NCBI GenBank assembly: GCA_003139995.1
Contig: PLIC01000138.1
Span: 5,710 to 42,018 of the forward strand
Reading direction: 5' to 3'
DNA length: 36,309 bases
Source: Candidatus Acidiflorens stordalenmirensis
GTDB lineage: Bacteria > Acidobacteriota > Terriglobia > Terriglobales > Acidobacteriaceae
The notes beneath the pieces are model-generated. The model did no database searches, was not told the origin of the DNA, and saw only the letters and a list, made by a program, of their open reading frames with translations. The position numbers and the translations under genes are program-made. Below, in pieces: positions 8,840 to 31,116 of this stretch. Numbering within the stretch: the stretch's first letter is position 1; every line of letters starts with the position of its first letter.

Positions 8840-8879
8840 CGAGTAGCGCGCATACCGCGGCGCGCCACTGCGGGCGAGA

Positions 8880-8949
8880 AGTTCTCAGTTCCCAGTTCTC
8901 AGTGAAAGCCACGAAACGTTTCTGAGAACTGGGAACTGAGAACTGAGAA
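8880..8949. repeat. Heptanucleotide repeat hairpin between regulator and kinase
   Basis: The left arm at 8880-8902 (GTTCTCA GTTCCCA GTTCTCA G units) and the right arm at 8922-8944 (CTGAGAA CTGGGAA CTGAGAA units) are a perfect 23-base inverted repeat around a 19-base loop. A further CTGAGAA unit extends the right side to 8949. No T tract follows, so a simple intrinsic terminator is unlikely. The right arm matches 1741-1762 exactly over 22 bases. Confidence 0.93.
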
Positions 8950-8962
8950 CTTCCTTATAAAG

Positions 8963-18347: not shown

Positions 18348-18398
18348 CGGGCATTCGATTCCCCGTAGAGACGCGGCTTGCCCGGTCTCTACGGGCGG
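18348..18398. repeat. REP-like palindromic repeat, family B, copy 1
   Basis: The arms CCCGTAGAGAC (18362-18372) and GTCTCTACGGG (18385-18395) are a perfect 11-base inverted repeat around GCGGCTTGCCCG. The flanks share similarity with 31066-31116, and the core recurs at 25962-26014. Confidence 0.88.
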
Positions 18399-22672: not shown

Positions 22673-22788
22673 TAGAGCGGATTCAGCGTTGCTGTATCCC
22701 GCTCGTGTGGGGACGGGCGCCCTCGCCCGTCCATGCCGAGCGCAACTCGGCAGTTGCCGGCGGCTACAGCAACTATGGATTTGCTCTA
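22673..22788. mobile_element. MITE-like 116-bp element, copy 1
   Basis: The ends are imperfect inverted repeats: the left reads TAGAGCGGATTCAGCGTTGC and continues TGTA, and the right end reverse-complements to TAGAGCAAATCCATAGTTGC plus TGTA. The outermost bases are TA on both sides, consistent with a TA target site. Inside are two hairpins, GGACGGGC..GCCCGTCC and GCCGAG..CTCGGC. The second copy at 25783-25898 has the same length and is about 90-95% identical by eye. It lies between the convergent REC/DHp-like gene and murB, ending 20 bases from the murB stop. Confidence 0.8.
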
Positions 22789-25782: not shown

Positions 25783-25898
25783 TAGCGCGGAGTCAACATT
25801 GCTGTATCCCGCTCGTGTGGGGACGGGCGCCCTCGCCCGTCCAAGCCGAGCGCAGCTCGGCAGTTGCCGGCGGCCACAGCAACTATGGATTCGCTCTA
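25783..25898. mobile_element. MITE-like 116-bp element, copy 2
   Basis: This has the same length and order of internal hairpins as 22673-22788, with scattered substitutions (such as CATGCC to CAAGCC and CGGCTACAGC to CGGCCACAGC). Terminal inverted repeats with outer TA are retained. It again lies between convergent genes. Confidence 0.8.
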
Positions 25899-29644: not shown

Positions 29645-29821
29645 TACGCTTTTACCTTCAGATTTCTTGCCAAGAAACTCGGATCCAAGTATTCATTCCG
29701 GGGCGGGTTACTGTTACTATTCTCCCACAATCCGGGGCGAGGCGACGGCGGCTGAAATTCGGCCTTATTTTTGTTTAACTTACAGGCAATTCTTGGCATC
29801 ATAATTTCAGTATTATCGACA

Positions 29822-29841
29822 GACGGGCGGGGACGCCCGTC
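29822..29841. repeat. Palindrome GACGGGC/GCCCGTC upstream of rlmN
   Basis: Seven-base perfect arms flank a 6-base loop, and the element ends 16 bases before the rlmN ATG. It resembles the GGACGGGC hairpin inside the MITE-like elements and the CCCGTCGCTCC stretch near 18445. Folding in the mRNA leader could influence translation. Confidence 0.6.
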
Positions 29842-29857
29842 GCTCCACCACCGCCGA

Positions 29858-31063
29858 ATGCAAAGTCAGCCATCCAACTCGCTCTTAGGACTTAACTTGC
29901 AGGAACTCACGGATCTTGCGATTGCGTCGGGGCAGCCTGCCTACCGAGGCCAGCAACTATTTGATGCGGTATATCGGCAAAAGATTGAGCGGCTGGATCG
30001 GGTTTCGACGCTGCCGCTCGAATATCGCGCTCGCCTGGCAGAGCAAGGCTGGGGAATGGGGTTTCCGGAGATTGCGCGCAAATTTGTTTCGAGCGATGGC
30101 ACGGTGCGTTATCTCGTGGAGCTGGCCGACGGCGAGACGGTCGAGACGGTCTGGATGCCCGAGGGCGATGGCGGGGAGAGCGGCGACGGCAGCGAAGCAG
30201 GCGACGAGGAAGCGGGTAACGAGATTGATGATGCGGAACGTGTGGTGGCGGGGCTTCGCCCCGCCGGACGGGGCGAAGCCCCGTCACCACACATCAATTG
30301 GCGTCGGGCGACGATCTGCGTCTCGAGCCAGGTGGGATGCGCGGTCAATTGCAAGTTCTGTTTCACGGCGCTGCTGGGGATCAAGCGGAATCTGGAGGCG
30401 GGAGAAATCGTTGGGCAGATCGCGGCAGTGCTCCGGGAGCAAGGAGTCGAGCCGCCGCTGCAGCGCGTCAACATAGTATTCATGGGCATGGGCGAACCCT
30501 TTTTGAACTATGACAACTTCATGAAATCGGTGCGGCTGCTGGTGGAGGGCGTGGGGATCCCGGAGTCGCGAATGACGGTGTCGACGGCGGGGATCGTGCC
30601 GCGGATTCGCGATTTCGGGCACGAAGCGGTACGCCCGAAGCTGGCGATTTCGCTGAATGCGTCGAACGACGCGTTGCGCAGCGAAGTGATGCCGCTGAAC
30701 CGCAAGTGGAATCTCGCGGAACTGATGCAGGCGGCGCGGGAGTTTCCGCTGCGGACGCGGGAGCGAATGACGTTTGAGTATGTGCTGATCGAGGGCGTGA
30801 ACGACGCTCCGGAGCAGGCGCGCGAGTTGGTGGAGTTGGTGCGAGGGATGCGGGCGAGAATCAATCTGATTGCACTGAATCCGGGGATCGAACTGCCCTA
30901 TCGGACGCCGGAAGAGGAGCGGGTGGTGGCGTTCCGGGAAATATTGGTGGCGGCGGGAATTCCGGCATTTGTGCGGCGTCCGCGAGGGCGCGATATTTTT
31001 GCGGCGTGCGGGCAGTTGAAGAGAACGGTGGAAGTGGCGCCCGGCCGCGAGTCCAGCCCCTAA
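29858..31063 (+). CDS. rlmN: Dual-specificity 23S rRNA/tRNA (adenine-C2) methyltransferase with an in-frame insert
   Basis: The 401-residue radical-SAM enzyme methylates C2 of A2503 in 23S rRNA and A37 in some tRNAs. The radical SAM cluster motif is CAVNCKFCF in SSQVGCAVNCKFCFTALLGI. The iron-sulfur/SAM segment VFMGMGEPFLNYDN, STAGIVPRIR and the C-terminal Cys in FAACGQL are present. The start is ATG 29858. TTG 29771 would add 29 residues across a palindrome. Between PEG and RATICVSSQVGC lie about 46 extra residues: an acidic stretch (GDGGESGDGSEAGDEEAGNE) and a palindrome-encoded VVAGLRPAGRGEAPSPH. All signature residues are retained, so the enzyme is probably active. Confidence 0.94.
   Translation: MQSQPSNSLLGLNLQELTDLAIASGQPAYRGQQLFDAVYRQKIERLDRVSTLPLEYRARLAEQGWGMGFPEIARKFVSSDGTVRYLVELADGETVETVWMPEGDGGESGDGSEAGDEEAGNEIDDAERVVAGLRPAGRGEAPSPHINWRRATICVSSQVGCAVNCKFCFTALLGIKRNLEAGEIVGQIAAVLREQGVEPPLQRVNIVFMGMGEPFLNYDNFMKSVRLLVEGVGIPESRMTVSTAGIVPRIRDFGHEAVRPKLAISLNASNDALRSEVMPLNRKWNLAELMQAAREFPLRTRERMTFEYVLIEGVNDAPEQARELVELVRGMRARINLIALNPGIELPYRTPEEERVVAFREILVAAGIPAFVRRPRGRDIFAACGQLKRTVEVAPGRESSP
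30241..30291. repeat. 51-bp palindromic element inside rlmN
   Basis: The arms 30241-30263 and 30269-30291 (23 bases, one mismatch) flank a 5-base loop. The left arm begins TGTGGTGGCGGGGCTTCGCC. At 51 bases the element is 17 codons long, and it is read in frame with no stop codon. The opposite strand encodes a similar peptide. It is embedded in coding sequence, unlike the other repeats of this window. Confidence 0.93.
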
Positions 31064-31065
31064 AG

Positions 31066-31116
31066 GGGCGTCTGATTTCCCGTACAGACGCGGCAAGCCC
31101 GGTCTCTATAGGCGAA
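31066..31116. repeat. REP-like palindromic repeat, family B, copy 3
   Basis: The arms CCCGTACAGAC (31079-31089) and GTCTCTATAGG (31102-31112) are partly decayed, and the loop GCGGCAAGCCCG resembles copy 1. It lies between the convergent rlmN and uracil-DNA glycosylase genes. Confidence 0.75.

Follow-up and report, generated by a model that had tools for sequence, protein, structure and literature searches.

The best-known palindromic repeats that are read as part of proteins are those of Rickettsia, an obligate intracellular genus in which relaxed selection readily explains them. Short palindromic REPs, often arranged as inverted dimers and also as dimers of unlike units, were described inside open reading frames of several species, many of them in genes for DNA synthesis and repair, and in recB of two Xanthomonas species different REPs occupy about the same site (Di Nocera et al. 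2013, PMC3733652). The phyla given in that paper for the GTAG and CGTC tags do not include Acidobacteria, for which it names only tyrosine transposases with terminal repeats, and rlmN is absent from its main text. RepRanger (PMC12306157) has a table row for REPs of Granulicella aggregans; the terms 'intragenic', 'within genes' and 'coding sequence' are absent from its main text. None of the titles returned by a literature search reported palindromes that are read in frame in rlmN or in any Acidobacteriota.

The repeat family analysed here shares with the intragenic GTAG/CGTC REPs the short palindromic form, the inverted or unlike dimers and the location in open reading frames (PMC3733652), but its unit ends in GTGTGG and has the inner stem CGGGGCnnnGCCCCG. 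Like the RPEs of Rickettsia, compared here by description only, it consists of dispersed palindromes translated in frame in conserved genes, whereas RPEs are about 150 bp long, belong to another phylum and in some cases end in CGTC (PMC10969869, PMC3733652); the unit of the present family has 53-54 bp. Coxiella QMITEs, which are short repeats too, contribute codons to genes, but they measure 150-400 bp, involve direct repeats and again come from another phylum (PMC5896051). REPINs have the inverted pair of REP hairpins as unit in common with the present family; they were counted in extragenic space, with their types beside RAYT genes (Bertels and Rainey 2011, PMC3116915), whereas at least 10 of 47 copies described below lie in genes and none of 39 Y1 transposase loci carried the repeat. 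Taken together, the data support a new Acidobacteriota family of protein-coding palindromes that is RPE-like by its behaviour. Its behaviour resembles that of RPEs and of intragenic REPs; a place among the RAYT-linked REPINs is not established. The same behaviour occurs in Acidobacteriota, in genomes of several million bases and in core enzymes, and a palindromic repeat in the reading frame of rlmN illustrates a way in which proteins can acquire repetitive DNA.

The window, i.e. the whole stretch of DNA analysed (36,309 nucleotides), contains one full copy of the element, located in rlmN (Table 1).

Table 1. Position of the palindromic element, its arms and the surrounding gene in the window.
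Feature	Position	Strand	Remark
Dispersed palindromic element, complete copy of 53 bp	30240..30292	+	in frame inside rlmN
Arm 1, own hairpin, G-C type, tag GTGTGG at 5' end	30240..30264	+	fold and covariation across copies
Arm 2, inverted, own hairpin, A-T type, GTGTGG on the minus strand	30268..30292	-	fold and covariation
rlmN, dual-specificity RNA methyltransferase	29858..31063	+	ATG at 29858 is the assumed start; element touches codons 128-145
Variable rlmN linker, residues 108-149	30179..30304	+	joins N-terminal part and radical-SAM part

The inverted repeat has arms of 24 nt (30240-30263 and 30269-30292) that are 96% complementary and enclose a loop of 5 nt, and its perfect stem of 15 bp exceeds all other perfect stems of the window that enclose 3-6 nt. 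Folded as RNA, the palindrome reached -54.8 kcal/mol in comparison to a mean of -24.05 kcal/mol for 200 shuffled sequences (z = -10.2). A search of the window with a 19-nt arm and up to three mismatches (0.05 hits expected) retrieved the two arms only. The element is free of stop codons, sits between WMPEG and RRATICVSSQVGC and would be translated as residues 128-145, RVVAGLRPAGRGEAPSPH; VVTGLRPVQAGQSPATTQ is an example of a predicted element-encoded peptide. The initial annotation had placed a 51-bp palindrome with 23-base arms and a 5-base loop at 30241-30291, between the MPEG strand and the RRATICVSSQVGC block of rlmN, and had counted 17 codons without a stop. The location, the palindrome, the loop and the stop-free VVAGLRPAGRGEAPSPH were confirmed. 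The extent had to be revised, with arms measured at 24 nt and a unit of 53 bp as defined by the other copies, and since the 17 codons VVAGLRPAGRGEAPSPH occupy 30242-30292, the coordinates given before were one base off.

Assignment of the gene is based on a match to TIGR00048 (NCBIfam) with 331 bits (cut-off 290), and the protein has the CxxxCxxC motif and the C-terminal cysteine; it is the single RlmN match in the host genome (G000, 5.49 Mb in 313 contigs). Among the Terriglobia RlmN proteins compared, the linker between ETV and VGC varied from 36 to 99 residues. In the RlmN model (mean pLDDT 78), residues 108-124 and 133-146 scored below 50 and are located between strands 94-100 and 151-156; three further low-pLDDT stretches follow beyond residue 160. 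A second copy in the host genome occupies residues 31-49 of LpxB (family match 3-385), and in the AlphaFold2 model of this protein (mean pLDDT 75) the element peptide falls within residues 30-50, which scored below 50 and are preceded by helix 9-27 and followed by strand 54-59; other low stretches were 79-85, 142-147 and 316-352. Both models thus place the predicted peptide at a low-confidence loop position. The low pLDDT values are compatible with disorder of these loops, without proving it, and the encoded peptide is presumably functionless.

Searching the host genome with a 20-nt arm and up to three mismatches gave 34 + 26 hits, compared with 2 + 1 for the reversed control. GTGT preceded the arm in 26 of the 30 loci examined out of these 60 hits; it was unselected, as the arm pattern contained only GG at the tag. 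With the strict unit pattern GTGTGG-nnn-CGGGGC-nnn-GCCCCG-(1-6)-CGGGGC-nnn-GCCCCG-nnn-CCACAC, 12 copies were found in the host genome and none in the reversed control. In total, 47 strict copies were present in 8 of 61 genomes, of up to several hundred contigs each, and all controls gave zero. The highest numbers were 17 in G003, 12 in G000, 6 in G015 and 5 in G008; G004, G007 and G010 had two each, and G027, from another genus of the same family, had one. G000 and G003 thus show a trait of REPs, a short palindrome repeated many times in one genome. All 47 copies differed from one another when unit and flanks were counted, and 44 units were distinct. The unit measured 54 bp (18 codons) in 36 copies, 53 bp in 10, including the one in rlmN, and 52 bp in one. 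Outside the unit, the flanks of both sides lean towards AAGC, with A, A, G and C the commonest bases at positions 1-4 (54, 59, 36 and 50 of 94, respectively).

The structure of the unit was evaluated by covariation in 33 distinct 54-bp copies against shuffles, a comparison that overstates independence because the copies are related to each other. The arm-internal pairs 8-26, 9-25, 29-47 and 30-46 were Watson-Crick in 94, 97, 82 and 88% of the copies (shuffle means 63, 51, 42 and 46%), and the outer arm-internal pairs 7-27 and 28-48 were weaker at 52 and 64% (shuffle means 23 and 27%). Variable positions that would face each other across the arms in a single long hairpin paired in only 3-39%; cross-arm pair 16-39 was paired in 97% but is nearly invariant. 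As the variable columns pair inside the arms and rarely across them, the unit consists of two hairpins that differ from each other, and covariation assigns it the layout of a REP dimer in which each arm forms its own hairpin. The constant stem was fixed by the search pattern and is uninformative in this respect, as is the inverted pairing of all 47 strict copies, which follows from the pattern definition. In 27 of the 33 copies one arm carries A-T and the other G-C at the variable place, and the rlmN copy conforms. Arms retrieved by the arm-only search mostly had a partner when inspected by eye, with L008 and L030 as exceptions. The GTGG beside the stem presumably fits the GTRG consensus of REP tags; GTAG, seen as a variant in the CarB genes of G023 and G014, is not the rule in this family.

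Open reading frames that run across the element were collected for each of the 47 copies (minimum 80 and then 100 amino acids), and 29 of them, the remainder being mostly shorter, were scanned with Pfam. At least 10 of the 47 copies are in frame in genes with family support, which comes from NCBIfam for rlmN and from Pfam for the other nine; several copies had no spanning frame listed, and the other 37 copies may lie inside or outside genes. In the host genome, at least five of the 12 copies belong to such genes: rlmN, lpxB, an Lhr-type helicase, an LptD_N/LptC-domain protein and a class-V aminotransferase (Aminotran_5). The initial annotation had named copies in other genes as support for insertion. 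The others lie in CarB and a DUF4015 protein of G015, in PurL and RecJ of G003 (the domain matches of RecJ lie on one side of the element only) and in aconitase of G027, between its two domains. Over both strands of the 47 copies, 236 of 282 frames were open, with stops in 3 of 94, 13 of 94 and 30 of 94 cases for the first, second and third phase. Eight of the ten in-gene copies are read in the V-V-T-G-L-R-P-type phase and two in the L-C-G-D-G-A-type phase, counts too small to claim a phase bias. Ribosomal protein L1 (L164) was discarded as a host gene, because about 50 residues separate the end of the element from the Pfam domain and the true start may lie downstream of the element. In an Lhr-type helicase frame (L022/L162, about 1501-1554), the element adjoins a second palindrome, GAGATGGGGCAAGCCCCGTCTCTAC, as if one repeat had entered another.

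Orthologues were compared for rlmN, LpxB, CarB and the aminotransferase, and for each of them some lacked the element, which together with the in-frame copies in conserved genes is a trait of protein-coding palindromes. Occupied and empty alleles of rlmN, LpxB and CarB were called by eye. In rlmN, 5 of 23 genomes of the genus were occupied, G000, G018 and G015 by the short unit and G010 and, in decayed form, G013 by a variant with a longer second arm. The other 18, of which one (G006) has a different palindrome-like stretch, lacked the palindrome, and possible remnants were seen by eye in G004, G017 and G002; a 24th genome, G007, with a fragment of rlmN only, was kept outside the 23. The copies in G000, G018 and G015 have the 53-bp unit (with substitutions) and the left flank GATGCGGAAC in common, so that the insertion is not fresh. 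LpxB carried a palindrome in nine of 18 alleles, five of the window type (two shortened) and four of other types; five were empty and four ambiguous. CarB contained a palindrome in 11 of 23 genomes and was empty in 12; some of the palindromes are decayed or reduced to half, and the inner stem differs between species, being GGGGC, GGGTC or GGGCG. By eye, a single loop is filled by different palindrome types in different species in both CarB and LpxB. The aminotransferase element was found in G000 only among 22 genes compared, three others having longer, different linkers; the occupied allele comprises 63 bp versus 27 bp in the empty ones, so that about 18 bp of host sequence are missing beside the 54-bp unit and the insertion was not clean. 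As related genomes display empty, occupied and decayed alleles, the entry of repeats into proteins, the loops that accept them and their persistence become testable.

These data bear on the suggestion of the initial annotation that, in parallel to the RPEs, a REP-like element had inserted into a conserved gene without breaking it. The likeness to RPEs is supported by the in-frame copies in conserved genes and by the orthologues devoid of the element, which for rlmN are the homologues without the segment that the annotation had named as support for an insertion. The reading frame is intact; as no mobilising enzyme was found beside a copy, we infer the insertion itself from the occupied and empty alleles. 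We regard it as probable (about 0.87) that the rlmN segment is a dispersed REP-type inverted dimer that entered the linker and was tolerated. A palindromic dimer with unlike arms would have entered the linker in an ancestor of this species or in a relative, and it would have been tolerated because most frames are free of stops, the frame was kept and the roughly 18 added residues belong to a loop that lies outside the core of the enzyme. Loops of further core enzymes in the genus would likewise have received members of this family and of sister families whose inner stems differ.

If the segment were instead an ordinary ancestral part of the RlmN linker, palindromic by chance or by demands of the protein, the variable linker length would be readily accommodated, but not the occurrence of the same nucleotide unit at 47 places, in two phases in unrelated genes, or a hairpin with z = -10.2. 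The initial annotation had named an insert in most relatives with no other copy in the genome as the sign of ancestral sequence; with 5 of 23 genomes of the genus occupied and 12 copies in the host genome the opposite was found, and the other copies of the unit rule this origin out for practical purposes. Selection of the hairpin for a role in the mRNA, in translation pausing, stability or regulation, would account for its very high stability (-54.8 kcal/mol) and for arm pairing that survives two-sided changes across copies, a feature that dispersed hairpins would show as well. However, 18 of 23 genomes of the genus do without the palindrome in rlmN, and the unit also occurs in unrelated genes and, in several copies, outside any listed spanning frame, which makes such a role improbable. 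More serious, at somewhat below even odds, is the view that each gene received one ancient insertion that descended vertically and was eroded or lost, with stem differences arising by compensatory mutation or gene conversion. The common rlmN copy and left flank of G000, G018 and G015 and the possible remnants in three further genomes fit this view, as does, by eye, a common right-flank type in many occupied CarB alleles that is absent from the empty ones. Against it, the four-gene tree of 24 genomes, of whose 21 inner branches 10 are open, demands at least five state changes for rlmN (5/23 occupied), six for CarB (11/23) and five for LpxB (9/14, leaving out the ambiguous alleles of G001, G020, G002 and G005), and the LpxB palindromes are visibly different in different species. 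In addition, among the CarB copies compared, those of G023 and G014 have the first-arm stem GGGTC, and the GGGTC/GACCC arm was found at 16 places in each of these two genomes (CarB copy included), at two places in G008 and nowhere in the nine further genomes searched. One event before the split of G023 and G014 would also fit this distribution, since they are near relatives. Beyond a single entry per gene, the loops of RlmN, LpxB and CarB might serve as docking sites that are emptied and refilled by the palindromic family active in the genome, a tentative proposal that we rate a little short of an even chance; if true, the loop sequence of a conserved enzyme would report the current repeat family of its host.

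The putative REP dimer was probably moved in trans by a RAYT- or TIRYT-type Y1 (HuH) transposase. Nine Y1_Tnp genes were detected in the host genome and 44 matches in six relatives, i.e. 53 in seven genomes. At the 39 loci examined out of these 53 (flanks up to 1.5 kb), the arm of the window family was absent at up to three mismatches, so that a direct transposase link is unsupported at this threshold and no RAYT gene flanked by the same repeat was found at these loci. An arm-like stretch with four mismatches, GTGTAGAGACGGGGCTTGCCCCGT, lies about 510 bp from a Y1_Tnp gene (L065, 965-988), and one with two mismatches about 2.1 kb from the L070 Y1 gene, as seen in the longer stretch L202. The absence of the unit from all Y1 genes examined, together with the terminal symmetry that extends outward into the flanks (A, A, G, C at positions 1-4), would suit a MITE moved by another transposase that recognises GTGTGG ends, perhaps GCTTGTGTGG. 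A unit of 54 bp with two self-complementary, unlike arms has the layout of a REP dimer, though, and several of the nine Y1 genes of the host genome are flanked by palindromes of their own, so that we consider a MITE unlikely. The closest design is that of L072, where both sides of the Y1 gene carry GTGGGGAC-stem-GTCC repeats with another inner stem, which is a resemblance only. In two other Terriglobia, the linker of rlmN in L093 resembles a repeat about 70 bp from the L068 Y1 gene (64 of 78 columns identical), and that in L095 a repeat about 215 bp from the L230 Y1 gene (66 of 84), suggesting that repeats beside Y1 transposases reach the rlmN linker.

Several further palindromes were noticed. 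The Y1_Tnp gene of L072 is flanked by ATGTGGGGACARCCGCCCTCGGCTGTCCG repeats (1276-1304, 1837-1865 and 2002-2030), whose outer tag and stem base match many arms of the window family. Fold z-scores of 107 rlmN linkers were tried as a detector and, besides G000, G015 (also L089) and G018, flagged L106 and L137; because of these extra picks, the weak value of G010 with its longer loop (-2.5) and the position of G013 outside the 26 linkers listed, they were not used as a count. Different palindromic or repeat-like DNA also seems to be present in rlmN linkers of other genomes (L046, L094, L106, L107 and L117), as if the linker collects repeats. In the window, another palindrome family, GGACGGGCGnnnnCGCCCGTCC, is found at 22711-22732, 25821-25842 and, with two mismatches and just 5' of rlmN, at 29821-29842; its strict arm occurs at 55 places in the host genome. 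Type CG arms were dropped as a discriminator, being present in 11 of 12 genomes searched. Palindromes of the form GTAGAGAC...GTCTCTAC are located at 18365-18392 and 31082-31109, the second with two mismatches and just 3' of rlmN. Inverted repeats of AGTTCTCAGTTCCCAGTTCTCAG occupy 8878-8953, and a similar CCCAGT-type sequence was recognised by eye in the rlmN linker of G005 (L040).
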